DNA of 64,000 nucleotides from Formicincola oecophyllae (GTDB lineage Bacteria > Pseudomonadota > Alphaproteobacteria > Acetobacterales > Acetobacteraceae), in contig NZ_CP038231.1 of assembly GCF_006542395.2 (NCBI RefSeq), positions 434,001 through 498,000 on the forward strand. Reading direction: 5' to 3'. Below are positions 25,144 through 31,831 of this stretch, in pieces (positions within the stretch are counted from its first letter, which is position 1; the number at the start of each line of letters is the position of its first letter). A model generated the notes under the pieces. That model had not been told where the DNA came from. It did not search any database and was given only the letters and a program-made list of their open reading frames with translations. The position numbers and the translations under genes are program-made.

Positions 25144-26997
25144 TCAGTGCGGGGCTGGTGTGGGCACCAAGGCATCCACCGCAGCAGCTGGAGCGATGGG
25201 GGGGCTGACCACGCCAGGAAAATGGAGGCTATCGCCACCACCACCCTGCTGCGCGGCAGGGCGGGTCTTGTAGCTGTTCTCAACACCATTGGCGGTTTGG
25301 TTGACGGCTTCCTCCTCCACAGCGTTGGCCAGTTTCACGTCCTTGCCTTTATCGGGCAACACGTCTTTCCAACCACCACCCAGGGCATTGTAAAGCTTGG
25401 CCATGCCATCAGCTAGGTCCGCGTCAGATTGCGCTGTGGCCATCTGGGCATTTTGCAGGTCCGTCTGCGCACTGAGAACATCAAGGTAAGTGGCCAGGCC
25501 AGAACGGTATTGACTGGTGGCCAAGGTTAGGCGGCGCTTGTTGTCACGGGCAGTTCCCTCAAGCCCGATTTTGCGGAACTGCCCTTCGCGGTAGGCCACC
25601 AAAGCATTGTCCACTTCATGCCAAGCCTTCAGGACGGTTTTGCGGTAAGTGACCGCAGCCTCTTTCTGTTGTTCCTTTTTCAGGCGCAGCTGCCCCCACA
25701 GACGTCCACCCTGGAAAATGGGAATGGTGATGGCAGGCCCGACATTCCATGTGCGTGCACTCCACATGGCTAAATCCTTGAAGGATAGGGTGGACATGCC
25801 AAAATTCGCATCAATGGTGAATTTTGGATAGAAATCAGCTGTGGCCTGCCCTGTCTCAGCCACTGTCTGGCGCAATATGGCTTCAGCCTCACGGATGTCA
25901 GGACGGCGGTGCGCCAACTCTGATGGCAGACCAATGGGAACCTGGGGCGGCACAGCTGGAATGGGGCTGATGCCAAGCTCCATGTCCAAGGCGTGGGGCT
26001 CCTTGCCAAGCAGCATAGCAATGGCGTTCTGTTCCTGGCTGATGGCCTGGGTCAAGCCGTGCTGGGCGACTTCCACCTCATGAAGGCGCGCTTGCATGGC
26101 TTCCACATCCACCTCAGAAACCAACCCTGTGCGGTAACGATTGGTGGTGAGGTTCACCAACCCCTCCACTGTGCCATGAGTGGCGGCCAGGATAGCGGCG
26201 CGCTTCTGATCACCGCGCAGATGTAGGTAATCGCGCGCCAAATCAGCCTGGGAGGCAATCAGGACTGTCCGCCGATGCCAGGCGGAAGCATCCGCAATGG
26301 CCTTGGCAGCCTCGTATTGCCGTGCCACGCGCCCCCAAAGGTCAACCTCGTAATTGGCGTCAACACCGTAGTTCCAAGCGTTGAGGAGTGGAATCTCAGC
26401 ATCTTTGGAGGATTGCCCAACCATGCTACCAAAGGGGCCAGGCGAGCTTTTGCCGATGCGGTGCAGGATTTCCTGCAGCTGCCGGCTTGAGGGCTGAGTG
26501 AGGCGGTACTGGCCCTGAATGCCCATCATGGGGAAGCGTTCAGCACCAGCGATCATCATCTCAGCGCGTGAGGAGCCAAGGTTGGCCGTTGCCTGCTGCA
26601 AATCCAGGTTCTGGGTGGAGAGGTCACGTTCCAGCTTGGTCAGTTCCGGATCGCGGAAAGAGTTCCACCAAGCATCGTCAAAGGGCTGTTCAACCACTTC
26701 ACTCAAAGGGGCTGGGGTGTTGGGCTGCCCTGCGCCCTTGTAACTGGCTGGGGCGGCTGGGTTGGGTTGGTGGTAATGCGGCCCAACCATGCAACCTGAC
26801 AAGGTGCCAGCCATCAGCAGGGCCACGGCCGCCTTGGCAGCTGGTTGCCGCCTGGGCGCTTGTCCTGACCGAACTGTTCGGTCACTATGCGTTTCCCCTG
26901 CCGTTCCGGCGCCTGGCGGCTTGTCCCGGCCCCCACCGCTGATCCTTGTTGGATGACTTAACTGATGCCTGTACCCGCTGATGCTGTTTCCGCTCAT
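25144..26997 (-). CDS. outer-membrane efflux lipoprotein (NodT family), partner of EmrAB-like pump
   Basis: An outer-membrane channel protein, about 617 aa as drawn. The lipobox (LLMAGTLSG before Cys, then MVGPHYHQP) and two OEP repeats (ELAHRRPDIREAEAILRQTVAETGQATADFYP; LDVLSAQTDLQNAQ) identify the family. The frame has no ATG, GTG or TTG between the ATG at 26997 and a GTG only 12 codons before the lipobox Cys, so the start is uncertain. The ATG choice leaves an unusually long leader and overlaps the divergent tetR start by 33 bp. A perfect palindrome lies inside the leader codons. Confidence 0.85.
   Translation of the reverse strand: MSGNSISGYRHQLSHPTRISGGGRDKPPGAGTAGETHSDRTVRSGQAPRRQPAAKAAVALLMAGTLSGCMVGPHYHQPNPAAPASYKGAGQPNTPAPLSEVVEQPFDDAWWNSFRDPELTKLERDLSTQNLDLQQATANLGSSRAEMMIAGAERFPMMGIQGQYRLTQPSSRQLQEILHRIGKSSPGPFGSMVGQSSKDAEIPLLNAWNYGVDANYEVDLWGRVARQYEAAKAIADASAWHRRTVLIASQADLARDYLHLRGDQKRAAILAATHGTVEGLVNLTTNRYRTGLVSEVDVEAMQARLHEVEVAQHGLTQAISQEQNAIAMLLGKEPHALDMELGISPIPAVPPQVPIGLPSELAHRRPDIREAEAILRQTVAETGQATADFYPKFTIDANFGMSTLSFKDLAMWSARTWNVGPAITIPIFQGGRLWGQLRLKKEQQKEAAVTYRKTVLKAWHEVDNALVAYREGQFRKIGLEGTARDNKRRLTLATSQYRSGLATYLDVLSAQTDLQNAQMATAQSDADLADGMAKLYNALGGGWKDVLPDKGKDVKLANAVEEEAVNQTANGVENSYKTRPAAQQGGGGDSLHFPGVVSPPIAPAAAVDALVPTPAPH
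26866..26884. promoter_or_regulatory. 19-bp perfect palindrome, likely TetR operator
   Basis: TGACCGAAC-T-GTTCGGTCA is perfectly symmetric about 26875. On the plus strand it fills the 17-nt spacer between TTGTCC (26860-26865) and CACTAT, which could be the tetR promoter. A related site, TGACCAATCGGTCA, lies upstream of emrA. Its position 80 nt before tetR supports autoregulation. Confidence 0.65.
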
Positions 26998-27660
26998 TTC
27001 CAAAACCCTTCCACCCTTCATGACAGCATTTCCCCCACCGCGTTGCCGCTCAGCCCTGCCTGCCAGAAACGGCGAGCCCAAATCATCAAAGGGGCTGGCA
27101 AAGTCTTCCTGAGGCTTGGCTACGAAGGGGCTTCGATGTCGGTCATCGCGCGCGAGGCCGGCGTTTCCAAAGGGGCGCTCTATAACCACTTCGTCAGCAA
27201 GGCTGAGCTGTTCACGGCCTTCTTTGAAGACACTTGCCGCACCAAGCTCGATGCCATTGAAAGCCTGCCCCGCACCAACGACGTCCCCCTGCAGGCGGCC
27301 CTTGAGGAAGCGGCCCTGATGCTCATCACCATGTTGAGTGACGCCATCGCGCTGGGGCTTTACCGCATCATCGTGGGGGAGGCTGAACATTTCCCCCACT
27401 TGGCTGACACTTTCTGGCGTTACGCCTATGCGCGCACCCTGGGAGGGCTGGCGCGCTGGTTTGAAGCGCGCATGGCCCTGAGCCCCGAACTGCTGGCTAT
27501 TGAAGACCCTTACCTGGCCGCTGAGCAGTTCTGCATGATGTGCCAAACCCGCATTATCCAACGCAAGCGCTTCATGCTGCCTGTTGATGACAGCCCCCAA
27601 GCCATTCAAGCGATCGCCCAGCTGACCGCCCGCAGCTTCATGCGCATCCACGCTCCCTGA
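26965..27660 (+). CDS. TetR/AcrR-family transcriptional repressor
   Basis: A 231-aa regulator. After a leader of about 30 residues the helix-turn-helix is clear: ASMSVIAREAGVSKGALYNHFVSKAELF. The C-terminal part is an all-helical ligand-binding domain ending in an AefR-like region. It is divergent from the outer-membrane factor gene and convergent with the MFS permease gene, so it sits inside its probable regulon. It likely represses the pump and itself through the palindromes at 26866 and 30783. The true start may lie further in, since the first residues are not conserved-looking. Confidence 0.9.
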   Translation: MPVPADAVSAHFQNPSTLHDSISPTALPLSPACQKRRAQIIKGAGKVFLRLGYEGASMSVIAREAGVSKGALYNHFVSKAELFTAFFEDTCRTKLDAIESLPRTNDVPLQAALEEAALMLITMLSDAIALGLYRIIVGEAEHFPHLADTFWRYAYARTLGGLARWFEARMALSPELLAIEDPYLAAEQFCMMCQTRIIQRKRFMLPVDDSPQAIQAIAQLTARSFMRIHAP

Positions 27661-27764
27661 GCCCTTCAGGTCAGAAAACGCGGCGCATGGGGGTTTGACC
27701 GCTGGCCCTACAGGGAGCACCAGGTTTGGAAAGGGCCGGCCATATTTATTGGTGGAGGCCATGT

Positions 27765-29390
27765 TCAGTGCCCTCCTTTGGCTGGCCCACCACTGCGCGG
27801 GCCAGGACTGGCAAGGAAACAGAGGGGCACCACGCTGAGGGCCAGCATGCCCAAGATCTGGAACACCTCATTGTAAGCCAGCATGGAAACCTGCACCTGG
27901 AAGTCCTGGTACATATGGGCCACAGCGTAGGATTTGGCCCGCAGGGGTGCGAAACCATGCCACTGCGCCACCTTGTCCACATCCTGGATGTATTGCCGCA
28001 TGGCCACGCGCCATGGGGCCGTGGCCGTGCCCAACTGATCCTGGTGGAGCTGGCGGGCCTCCGTCAGGCCAGCACCTGAATAGGAGATGGCCTGGCTGCC
28101 CAGGTAGTTGCGCACCATGGCGAACAGGGCCGAACCATCAGCGTTCAGTTCATCAGGCAGGGTCATGAACGCCAGCGTAGAAATGGGCACGAACAAAAAG
28201 GCCAAGGGCGCGGACTGCAGCAGGCGGCATTTGACCAGCCAGCCAAAGCTTGTGCCAGTGTAAAGCTGTGACGAGTAGAACAGCGACGTGGCCATGAACA
28301 TGAAGCCAAACGCGATGATGTAGCGCAACTCCACCTTGCCCATCAGTTTCCCCACAAAAGGGATGAGGCAGATGATGACCACGCCCCCAGGCGCTAGGAG
28401 CATGCCAGCCAGCGTTGCCGTGTAACCCTGCACCTGCTGGGCGAACTGCGGCACGATAACAGCACCTGCGTAGAGGATCATGCCCATCGCTCCCACCAGA
28501 ACCGTGCCGACGGCAAAGTTCCTGTCCTTGAGCACAGAAAGGCGGAGAAGCGGGTTCTTGGACTTGAGAAGCCAGATGATGGCCGCAATGGTGCAGGAGA
28601 AGCCGATGAGGGCCATGGTGATGATGAAGCCAGAACTAAACCAGTCGTCATCTTCGCCACGGTCGGCCATGATCTCCACACAGCCCAGCCCCAATGAAAT
28701 CAAGCTGATGCCAATGACGTCAATGCGGCTCTTGCGGGCTTTCTCCCAAGGCGGGTCCTCCAGAATGCCAGCCACCAGGGCCGTTGTGATGATGCCAAAA
28801 GGCACGTTGACGAAAAACACCCAGTGCCAGGAGTAATTGTCCGTCAGCCACCCACCCAGAAGAGGGCCAAGCACAGGCCCCACAATGGTGGCGATGGCTG
28901 ACAGACCAAAGGCTGCGCCGCGCTTGTCCGGTGGGAAGATGTCCAGGATGATGGATTGCTGGCATGGCTGCAGGCCGCCGCCAAAGAATCCCTGCAGCAA
29001 CCTAAAGATCACTAGCATGCCCAGGCTTTGTGAAAGCCCACAGCAGAAGGATGTCAAGGTGAACATGCTGATGCAGATCATGAAGTAGCGCTTGCGCCCG
29101 AATGTGCGCGAAAGCCATCCAGAAATGGTCAGCACAATGCCGTTGGCCACAAGGTAGGAAGTCAGGGCCCAGGTGGCATCATCGTAGGAGCAGCCCAGGG
29201 CGCCGGCGATGTGCGGCAACGCCACGTTGACAATCGTGGTGTCAAGCACCTCCATGAAAGCGGCCATGGTGACCACAATGGCCACTAGCCAAGGGTTATA
29301 TTTGGGCTTCCAGGCGGCACGCTCGGCTTCCGTGCCGGGGCTCCTCTCAGGGTTGCCCCCTGGGTCGTCATGGGTAATGGCTGTGCTCAA
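27765..29390 (-). CDS. emrB: EmrB/QacA-type MFS drug transporter (DHA2 family)
   Basis: A 14-helix proton-coupled drug exporter, 541 aa. Seen motifs: MEVLDTTIVNVALPHIAG in helix 1, the loop 2-3 motif GWLSRTFGRKRYF, and the antiporter motif GPVLGPLLGGWLTD in helix 5. A short charged N-terminus precedes helix 1. Its start overlaps the stop of the membrane-fusion gene by 4 bp (ATGA), so they form one operon. With the NodT-type protein at 25144 it would make a tripartite pump. Confidence 0.93.
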   Translation of the reverse strand: MSTAITHDDPGGNPERSPGTEAERAAWKPKYNPWLVAIVVTMAAFMEVLDTTIVNVALPHIAGALGCSYDDATWALTSYLVANGIVLTISGWLSRTFGRKRYFMICISMFTLTSFCCGLSQSLGMLVIFRLLQGFFGGGLQPCQQSIILDIFPPDKRGAAFGLSAIATIVGPVLGPLLGGWLTDNYSWHWVFFVNVPFGIITTALVAGILEDPPWEKARKSRIDVIGISLISLGLGCVEIMADRGEDDDWFSSGFIITMALIGFSCTIAAIIWLLKSKNPLLRLSVLKDRNFAVGTVLVGAMGMILYAGAVIVPQFAQQVQGYTATLAGMLLAPGGVVIICLIPFVGKLMGKVELRYIIAFGFMFMATSLFYSSQLYTGTSFGWLVKCRLLQSAPLAFLFVPISTLAFMTLPDELNADGSALFAMVRNYLGSQAISYSGAGLTEARQLHQDQLGTATAPWRVAMRQYIQDVDKVAQWHGFAPLRAKSYAVAHMYQDFQVQVSMLAYNEVFQILGMLALSVVPLCFLASPGPRSGGPAKGGH

Positions 29391-30739
29391 GGCTGCATAC
29401 CCCTGGCGGCCTGTTTGGCAGTGCGGCCGGACGCAGGCATGTTCACTGGCGCCGTGGTGACGGGCTGGGCGCCAACAGGAGCCTGGCCGCCATTGGCCAT
29501 CAGCATGGCATCCTGGTCATCCTGCGCGACAGAGTGGAAAGGCATCCCTGAGCCATTCAGGCCGCCTTCAGCTTTGCATAGGGCATTAACGTCACTTGGA
29601 TGGGTGCTGACATCCACCACAGGCTCCACTGAAAGGCCAATCGCCAAGGGGATGTCCTTGCGCATGCCACAATCAATGAGGATCTTGACAGGAATACGCT
29701 GGACAATCTTCACGAAGTTGCCAGTGGCGTTTTCAGGCGGAAAAGCGCTGAAGGCTTCACCAGAACCCATCTGCAGGGAATTGACATGGCCACGCAGGTG
29801 CAGTTGCGGGTAAGCGTCCACATGTAGGTCGACCAGCTGACCAGGGCGCATGTTCTTCAATTGGGTTTCCTTGAAGTTGGCCACGATCCAGATGTCGCGC
29901 GGCACGATGGAGAACATCGTCTGGCCCACCGACACGTAATCGCCACGCTCCACGGCGCGTTGGGAAACCCAACCATCCCAAGGGGCGCGCACTGCCATCC
30001 ATTCTACATTCAAGCGTGCGTGCTCTAAAGCAGCCTGCGCTGCCTTCATGTTGGCGTCCGCCTGGGAAATGTGGGCGTCAGCGCTGGCGATGTTGGCCTT
30101 AACGGGCAAGGCCTGCATCACATGGCCCTGCGCTTCCATCACAGCCGCCTCGGCAGCCTGCAGTTCGGCGCGCGCCGTGTCGATGTCAGCCTGGGAGGTG
30201 GCCGCACGCATGACGCGGTGCTGGCGGCCGTAATCGGTCCGCGCCTTGAAAAGCCTGGCCTTGGCTTGGCCCAATTCACCTTGGGCGACCTCAAGCTGGC
30301 CTGGGAAGTTCTTTGAAGCCACCAACAGGCCAAGCTTGTAGGCTTTCAAGTCAGCCTGGGCCTGCACAACAGAAGCTTCAGACTGTTTCAAGTTGGCAAG
30401 GTAATCACGCCCATCAATCGTGACCAGCAATTGACCCTTGTGAACGAATTCATTGTCATTGACTAGGAGGTTGCTGACGTAACCTGCCACATGGGGCGCA
30501 ATGCCAACCTTGCGGCCCGTGGTGTAGGCATCGTCTGTGTCCACCTCGTTGCGGTGGAGGAACATCCACATGCCAATGCCCAGCACGACCAGCACCATCA
30601 GGATGGCAATGGCGATCTTCTTGGCCGTGGGGCTCATCTTCTCCTTCTTCTCAGGCTCCATCATAGCTTCTGGAGAAGTGGAGGGGGATGAAGGCGCTGG
30701 CGCAGCGCTCTGATTGTCATCAGTGGAATGGGTGGGCAT
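29387..30739 (-). CDS. emrA: EmrA-type HlyD-family membrane-fusion protein
   Basis: A 450-aa adaptor. A Ser/Pro/Glu-rich cytoplasmic leader, one helix (about 41-62) and then the family motif EVDTDDAYTTGRKVGIAPHVAGYVSNLLVNDNEFVHKGQLLVTID, a long coiled-coil hairpin, and VRAPWDGWVSQRAVERGDYVSVGQ are typical of EmrA. The C-terminus is Ala/Pro-rich. The start has AGGA close upstream. The operator-like palindrome 44 nt upstream suggests TetR control. It is the first gene of the emrAB pair. Confidence 0.93.
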   Translation of the reverse strand: MPTHSTDDNQSAAPAPSSPSTSPEAMMEPEKKEKMSPTAKKIAIAILMVLVVLGIGMWMFLHRNEVDTDDAYTTGRKVGIAPHVAGYVSNLLVNDNEFVHKGQLLVTIDGRDYLANLKQSEASVVQAQADLKAYKLGLLVASKNFPGQLEVAQGELGQAKARLFKARTDYGRQHRVMRAATSQADIDTARAELQAAEAAVMEAQGHVMQALPVKANIASADAHISQADANMKAAQAALEHARLNVEWMAVRAPWDGWVSQRAVERGDYVSVGQTMFSIVPRDIWIVANFKETQLKNMRPGQLVDLHVDAYPQLHLRGHVNSLQMGSGEAFSAFPPENATGNFVKIVQRIPVKILIDCGMRKDIPLAIGLSVEPVVDVSTHPSDVNALCKAEGGLNGSGMPFHSVAQDDQDAMLMANGGQAPVGAQPVTTAPVNMPASGRTAKQAARGMQP

Positions 30740-30782
30740 TGCGCATCCTGCTCTGGTGATGGGCGGGAAACCGTCTGGATGG

Positions 30783-30796
30783 TGACCAATCGGTCA
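30783..30796. promoter_or_regulatory. operator-like palindrome upstream of emrA
   Basis: TGACCAATCGGTCA (TGACC/GGTCA arms, central four bases not symmetric) shares its outer half-sites with the palindrome at 26866-26884. On the minus strand it directly follows TTGAAA, a possible -35, so a bound repressor would cover the emrA promoter. Confidence 0.55.
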
Positions 30797-30949
30797 TTTC
30801 AAGGTTTTGCACCAATTGCACAGCAGCGCTGCCCTGGCAAGCCCCGCTTTGCCTGCCCCCACACTTAGGGAATCACGTATTCACAATGATTTTTGTTTGT
30901 TATCATGGGGTTCTAAAATTTTCTTGATAATCTTATAAAGGCCAATTCC

Positions 30950-31831
30950 ATGACTTTCAGCAAAACTTATTTCTTGGCAGGCCATGAGGTAAACCGCATG
31001 GGCTACGGGGCGATGCAGCTTGCAGGCCCAGGCGTCTTCGGTCCCCCAGCCAACCGCGCCCAATGCGTAGAAGTGCTGCGTGAAGCCTTGGAGCTTGGTG
31101 TCAACCACATCGACACTAGCGATTTCTATGGACCGCACATCGTCAATGACATCATCCGGGAAGCCCTTGCGCCTTATCCCGCTGATTTGACCTTGGTCAC
31201 CAAAGTGGGTGCCCGGCGGGACGCAAAAGGCGCCTGGCTACCTGCCCAAAGCCCTGGGGAAATTACGGCAGCTGTAGAAGACAACCTGCGCAATCTTGGC
31301 CTGGATGTGCTTGAGGTCGTCAACCTGCGCGCGATGTTTGACATGTTCCAACCAGCGCCTGGTTCCTTGCGGCCCCAGTTGGAAGCTTTGGCGCAACTGG
31401 TGCAGCGCGGCTTGGTCAAGCATGTTGGGCTGAGCAACGTCACCCATGACCAAGTCAGGGAAGGTTTCACCATTATGCCCATTGCTTGTGTGCAGAACCA
31501 CTACAACCTTGTTCAGCACGCTGATGACCGCTTGATTGATGAACTGGCCGAACGCCAGGTGCCGTACGTCCCCTTTTTCCCACTAGGTGGCTTCACGCCC
31601 ATCCAATCAGACGCTTTGAGCGCTTTGGCACAGAAATTGGGCCACACGCCCCATCAACTGGCCTTGGCGTGGCTGTTGCAGCGTTCTCCCAACATTTTGC
31701 TGATTCCTGGTACCTCCTCCCTTGCGCATCTTAGGCAAAACCTGGCCGCAGCTGACATCACCCTTGATGCTTCCACCTTGGCAATCCTTGATGGCATTGG
31801 CGCTTCATCACGCCCCAGCCGGGGAAGCTGA
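30950..31831 (+). CDS. aldo/keto reductase family oxidoreductase
   Basis: A 293-aa NADPH-dependent (alpha/beta)8-barrel reductase. The tetrad Asp (55, in HIDTSDFYG), Tyr (60) and Lys (85, in LVTKVG) are present. The usual catalytic His after strand 4 is replaced: the segment reads VVNLRAMFD. The YdbC-like branch shares this, to my knowledge. The C-terminal cofactor segment IPGTSSLAHLRQNLAA is intact. It is divergent from emrA, and its 3' end overlaps the convergent gene by 24 bp. The substrate is unknown; aldehydes or ketones are expected from the family. Confidence 0.9.
   Translation: MTFSKTYFLAGHEVNRMGYGAMQLAGPGVFGPPANRAQCVEVLREALELGVNHIDTSDFYGPHIVNDIIREALAPYPADLTLVTKVGARRDAKGAWLPAQSPGEITAAVEDNLRNLGLDVLEVVNLRAMFDMFQPAPGSLRPQLEALAQLVQRGLVKHVGLSNVTHDQVREGFTIMPIACVQNHYNLVQHADDRLIDELAERQVPYVPFFPLGGFTPIQSDALSALAQKLGHTPHQLALAWLLQRSPNILLIPGTSSLAHLRQNLAAADITLDASTLAILDGIGASSRPSRGS

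Follow-up and report, generated by a model that had tools for sequence, protein, structure and literature searches.

A TetR-type regulator at an EmrAB-like efflux locus of acetic acid bacteria, with predicted operators of two lengths

We analyzed a window of 64,000 nucleotides of bacterial DNA (C1:434001-498000) from a source genome of 1.96 Mb in three contigs; the named relatives in our scan are acetic acid bacteria, and a plasmid search gave no match. The window contains an efflux locus with the gene order outer-membrane factor (minus strand), tetR (plus), emrB (minus) and emrA (minus). The regulator gene is therefore positioned between the pump genes and their outer-membrane partner, as a preliminary description of this DNA had stated. 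The locus contains the following features:

25144..~26826, minus strand: outer-membrane factor, a NodT/TolC-type lipoprotein (TIGR01845, 325.5 bits; cut-off 210.05)
26866..26884, no strand: 19-bp candidate operator TGACC-n9-GGTCA, between the outer-membrane factor gene and tetR, 80 bp upstream of the tetR ATG
26965..27660, plus strand: tetR, TetR/AcrR-family regulator of 231 aa with recognition helix SKGALYNHF (PF00440, PF14246, fold model)
27765..29390, minus strand: emrB, DHA2-family MFS pump of 541 aa (TIGR00711, 418.2 bits; cut-off 230.2)
29387..30739, minus strand: emrA-like periplasmic adaptor of 450 aa (PF16576, HlyD_D23, 63.9 bits; cut-off 30)
30783..30796, no strand: 14-bp candidate operator TGACC-n4-GGTCA, 43 bp upstream of the emrA ATG at 30739
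30950..31831, plus strand: aldo/keto reductase gene, divergent from emrA (NF007695, 456.7 bits; cut-off 280)

The TIGR00711 score places the permease in the EmrB subfamily, and the TIGR01845 score identifies the nearby outer-membrane factor as the NodT/TolC kind, both as in an EmrAB-type tripartite MFS pump. The adaptor scores 248 bits against the EmrA/EmrK-subfamily model TIGR00998, below its cut-off of 390.8, and by this measure is classed as EmrA-like rather than EmrA. The emrA and emrB reading frames share 4 bp. Since the aldo/keto reductase gene starts only 153 bp from the 14-bp site, it might also be affected by that site. A scan of 26600-31000 for sigma-70 promoters revealed none that was convincing, with one match against 1.4 expected from shuffles.

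The start of the outer-membrane factor (26780-27003, minus strand) is unusual, in that there is no clear start codon where relatives show a GTG about 45 bp past the palindrome. The frame is open upstream, through the 19-bp site, and its only in-frame ATG, GTG or TTG codons are GTG 26826, ATG 26814 (which would leave a very short signal peptide), ATG 26997 and TTG 27003. If either of the last two is the start, the palindrome would fall within the gene.

The tetR product is a member of the TetR/AcrR family: it matches TetR_N (PF00440) with 54 bits against a cut-off of 24 and TetR_C_7 (PF14246) with 70.5 bits against 22, and its AlphaFold model (mean pLDDT 89.4) is a confident, all-helical TetR fold. 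Among solved structures, the closest in fold are MexL, MLR_4833, NalC and FrrA. MexL and NalC of Pseudomonas aeruginosa resemble the window TetR in fold and are likewise efflux-linked regulators, with 28% and 25% identity to it, respectively, over the structural alignment. FrrA of Bradyrhizobium (PDB 6g87, 6g8g and 6g8h) came first in a profile search of solved structures (E 4e-43) and is also encoded beside an efflux pump, FreCAB, which is called RND type in PMC4070704. According to their PDB titles, the FrrA structures include bound genistein and naringenin, making plant phenolics a reasonable first guess at the inducer, and no more. The recognition helix of FrrA reads SKATLYAYF, compared to KGALYN in the window, and loci in our set with the FrrA-type helix use AACTGAACNGTTCAGTT rather than TGACC-n9-GGTCA. 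The window TetR thus differs from the FrrA type in both operator class and helix, where FrrA's own operator is assigned from its helix type.

RutR binds the site TTGACCA-nn-TGGTCAA, whose half-site spacing matches that of the 14-bp emrA site. The window TetR is not a RutR, scoring 37.6 bits against a TIGR03613 cut-off of 368, and unlike RutR it stands among efflux genes. QacR controls an MFS drug pump, and PMC6018408 depicts a dimer of dimers on its operator, CTATA-n9-TATAG; TGACC-n9-GGTCA at 26866-26884 is a pseudo-palindrome of the same 5-9-5 geometry, with a half-site that differs from that of QacR. QacR itself is not among the best 60 PDB sequence matches listed for the window TetR in either of two comparisons, and it is not known to have an operator of 5-4-5 geometry. 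More broadly, the grouping of TetR-family proteins given in PMC4150764 separates dimer-of-dimers binders on 22-32 bp, with CprB on 22 bp, from single-dimer binders on 15-17 bp, including TetR, SimR and DesT. In the open-licence literature we found neither a description of a TGACC-n9/n4-GGTCA operator nor anything joining FrrA with EmrAB and TetR, and passages on EmrAB with TetR and Acetobacteraceae named no operator.

The 19-bp site, TGACCGAACTGTTCGGTCA, is a perfect 9-1-9 palindrome, and the emrA promoter carries the shorter TGACCAATCGGTCA with the same outer half-sites, TGACC and GGTCA; the preliminary description had reported both elements, and both are present at these positions. TGACCGAACTGTTCGGTCA is unique at up to three mismatches, in the window and in the whole genome. 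When the spacing in TGACC-nX-GGTCA is allowed to vary from 0 to 13, the window contains three matches: n9 at tetR, n4 at emrA, and n2 at 31188, within the aldo/keto reductase gene. Forty shuffles of the window gave on average 0.45 perfect 9-1-9 palindromes, compared with the one observed, and 8 of 100 shuffles contained the 14-mer pattern. These chance statistics alone are modest evidence for the sites; their placement and their conservation in relatives are the convincing part.

Searching 397 genomes of the family by protein at E up to 1e-25, we found orthologues of tetR in 145, and we scored the upstream DNA of 56 usable loci (among L001-L057) for two operator classes against the recognition helix of the adjacent regulator. 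Loci with the helix KG[TA]LYN carry TGACCGANCNGNTCGGTCA, at up to three mismatches, upstream of tetR in 28 of 30 cases (the misses are L033 and L047), while all 12 loci with KAT[LV]YA carry the other class, AACTGAACNGTTCAGTT, at up to two mismatches. KGSLYN loci, all from genus g33, carry the TGACCGANCNGNTCGGTCA-class site in none of 10 cases. The four remaining loci have other helices, and one of these, L009 (KGTIYH), shows an intermediate sequence. Across these sequences, the class of operator tracks the recognition helix of the TetR encoded next to it.

A second set of loci contains the site in 84 of 85 cases (80 named loci, four others and the window; the miss is L093), although most of these loci were found through the pattern KG[TA]LYN[HY]F and the set is not an independent draw. 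Information content, measured over 64 distinct 43-mers, is 1.46-2 bits from position -9 to position +9, except for position -2 (0.73) and the centre (0.23), and at most 0.68 bits in the flanks outside positions +10 (1.22) and +13 (1.06).

Genus g33 presents a distinct pattern. Its tetR-side operator is absent in 10 of 10 loci (L002, L038, L039, L041-L043, L045, L049, L051 and L052), its recognition helix has serine in place of threonine or alanine, and it keeps the 14-bp emrA site in the six genomes checked (G319, G296, G373, G340, G234 and G032). With the tetR-side site missing in g33, L033 and L047, autoregulation may be lost or different there.

The emrA-side site differs in length between two groups of relatives. 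Within the window's own clade, comprising Saccharibacter, genera g30, g33, g86 and g94, and the window, the emrA promoter carries TGACC-n4-GGTCA in all 14 genomes examined. Gluconobacter, Neokomagataea, Tanticharoenia and genome G009 have 19-bp sites of one class upstream of both emrA and tetR. Counted by row, 17 rows from 14 different genomes have an emrA site of 14 bp, 19 rows have one of 19 bp, and TGACC-n9-GGTCA stands at both genes in 19 rows. We placed these lengths on a tree of EmrB, EmrA and TetR (36 rows, 33 of them different; 1084 columns; quick search with SH-aLRT only). Operator length at emrA changes once, on the branch splitting the two sides (100% SH-aLRT), whereas presence of the tetR 19-mer changes twice on the same tree. 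On these sequences, the pump operator changed architecture once in the clade, and the repressor's own operator mostly did not.

This tree has no outgroup and alone cannot separate gain from loss, but the 19-bp form is found both at tetR and on the other side of the tree, pointing to a change from 19 to 14 bp. Consistent with this direction, removing five consecutive bases from the Gluconobacter emrA site, TGACCGATCGGTTCGGTCA, gives TGACCGATCGGTCA, which is letter for letter the form seen in G159. The 14-bp site was thus probably derived from a 19-bp site through loss of 5 bp. The 14 clade genomes contain 36 exact 14-mers, compared with 21 matches to a reversed control; the 36 include the 14 emrA sites, which explain most of the surplus. 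In G159, G139, G234 and G032 there is no further exact copy. The middle of the site reads RRYY in all 14 emrA sites and in only 2 of 22 14-mers located elsewhere. Taken together, the comparison with relatives indicates that both sites are conserved operators, and lends support to the earlier proposal that the three units (tetR, the outer-membrane factor gene and emrAB) belong to one TetR regulon.

Based on these comparisons, we consider it probable that the two sites are operators of the local TetR repressor, predicted to regulate tetR itself, the outer-membrane factor gene that diverges from it, and emrAB. Without inducer, the repressor would occupy both sites and block transcription; it would be freed by a toxic compound that the pump exports, perhaps a plant phenolic. 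The 19-bp site may be bound by two dimers offset by 5 bp, each reading one outer TGACC half-site and a weaker inner GANC/GNTC half-site, while a single dimer would span the two outer half-sites of the 14-bp site, which probably arose at emrA by loss of 5 bp from the longer form. We base this model on the half-site spacing of 9 versus 4 bp, the conserved middle of the 19-mer, and the precedents of QacR and CprB.

An alternative is that the cluster's TetR acts on its own 19-bp site only, and that the 14-bp emrA site is read by another TetR with a similar half-site. The window genome encodes three TetR_N proteins, the cluster's own and two others, which would provide candidates for such a regulator. 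One of these two, at locus L059, lies just downstream of a hydrolase-like gene that has AGACCAATTGGTCA, one mismatch off the pattern, upstream of it (G000:C1:678980-678993; L059:69-82); AGACCAATTGGTCA is possibly an operator of that regulator. Against this alternative, the tetR and emrA promoters of the other clade share a single class of 19-bp site, and genome G139 carries both the tetR 19-mer and the emrA 14-mer although only the TetR of the cluster passes the TetR_N cut-off there (two other matches fall below it, at 22.4 versus 24 bits). We therefore regard a second reader of the emrA site as unlikely; that the cluster TetR reads both sites is the simplest reading and probably correct for these genomes.

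The preliminary description had taken the different half-site spacings as a sign of two binding affinities. On such a reading, one flexible dimer would span gaps of either 4 or 9 bp to give a strong and a weak operator. The outer half-sites TGACC and GGTCA are indeed common to both sites. A TetR dimer, however, has a fixed reach, and a shift of 5 bp, close to half a turn of the helix, places the half-sites on different faces. Further, the 9-bp middle of the 19-mer is conserved save for two positions, as would not be expected of a mere spacer, and QacR reads a 5-9-5 site as a pair of dimers in the account of PMC6018408. The 5-4-5 spacing would suit one dimer, and 5-9-5 is the spacing of QacR. 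We judge a flexible dimer unlikely and the earlier suggestion of two affinities unsupported in its simple form; the spacing difference, a single, clade-wide change at emrA, is better understood as two operator architectures, one dimer versus a pair. Finally, we rejected the explanation that both sites are functionless chance palindromes: a stretch of 64 kb will fairly often contain a perfect 9-1-9 palindrome, but different genera keep these sites at corresponding promoters, which leaves chance practically no room.

Returning to the model of one repressor with two operator architectures, we searched for further members of the regulon. The window genome contains four exact matches to TGACC-n4-GGTCA: the emrA site, one at an MdtA-like gene (L149), one at an AcrA-like gene (L150), and one in L064 that sits within overlapping open frames. 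The L149 site, TGACCAAACGGTCA (L149:2805-2818; promoter at C1:406804), lies 34 bp upstream of the MdtA-like adaptor gene, which is followed by two RND pump genes, and the L150 site (promoter at C1:869020) lies 236 bp upstream of the AcrA-like RND-pump adaptor gene. The genome has six other adaptor genes over the PF16576 cut-off, and two of the three non-emrA sites lie in the 250 bp preceding such a gene, a placement with a chance of about 2e-6 when reckoned after the fact. Neither site is conserved: none of 17 orthologues of the MdtA-like gene has an upstream site at up to one mismatch (4 of 17 do at two), and none of 14 orthologues of the AcrA-like gene has one at up to two mismatches. The middles of the two sites, AAAC and ACCC, also depart from the RRYY of emrA sites. 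Given this lack of conservation, the absence of an RRYY middle and the distance of the AcrA site from its gene, we retain the RND-pump adaptor sites as a lead only. At up to one mismatch the window genome holds 99 matches versus 65 for the reversed control, and none of five places inspected among them was convincing.

The AcrA-like operon of the window genome (L150:4285-4957; C1:868784-869456) has TGACC-n4-GGTCA instead of a divergent TetR gene and a GGAAAC/GTTTCC palindrome. A TetR gene stands beside the AcrA-like gene in 9 of 10 relatives compared and is absent in G139 and in the window genome; the palindrome is found upstream of the gene in 13 of 14 relatives, and in the window genome the intergenic region, 673 bp long, lacks it even at two mismatches. 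The local AcrR-like regulator and its site are thus gone here, and the TGACC-type site is present.

Two Saccharibacter genomes (G224 and G181) have a YtcA-like/HlyD-like gene pair that adjoins an outer-membrane factor gene and has an RRYY 14-mer about 115 bp upstream. These 14-bp sites of the emrA type are:

L201:2744-2757: before the YtcA-like/HlyD-like pair
L204:2540-2553: before the YtcA-like/HlyD-like pair

The sequences hint that efflux genes were recruited to the 14-bp site separately in each genus. Other 14-mer matches in relatives were discarded, as they fall in the ribosomal L5 gene (L200), in a FUSC gene (L210) or within open frames (L202 and L203). TGACC-n9-GGTCA also has matches outside the cluster over 17 genomes, and a conserved 19-like site in Komagataeibacter (L135, the one inspected) lies within an open frame of 758 aa, and we treated it as coding sequence. 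A more far-reaching reading, which we find doubtful, is that one TetR uses both binding modes, two dimers on 19 bp and one dimer on 14 bp, with a single switch between them in the clade through a 5-bp loss at emrA, and that in the window's lineage the loss of the acrA-linked TetR gene was followed by recruitment of the 14-bp site at two RND pumps (those with the MdtA-like and AcrA-like adaptors), yielding a master switch for three pumps in a 2-Mb genome.

The predicted system, in which a TetR repressor controls the tripartite pump encoded beside it, is ordinary in kind, and its regulon is solid by comparison of sequences across relatives. The locus also offers a ready search pattern for efflux regulons of acetic acid bacteria. 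If one regulator does use both binding modes, and if a 5-bp loss does convert one operator into the other, this locus and its Gluconobacter counterpart would form a natural before-and-after pair in which the evolution of operator architecture could be tested.
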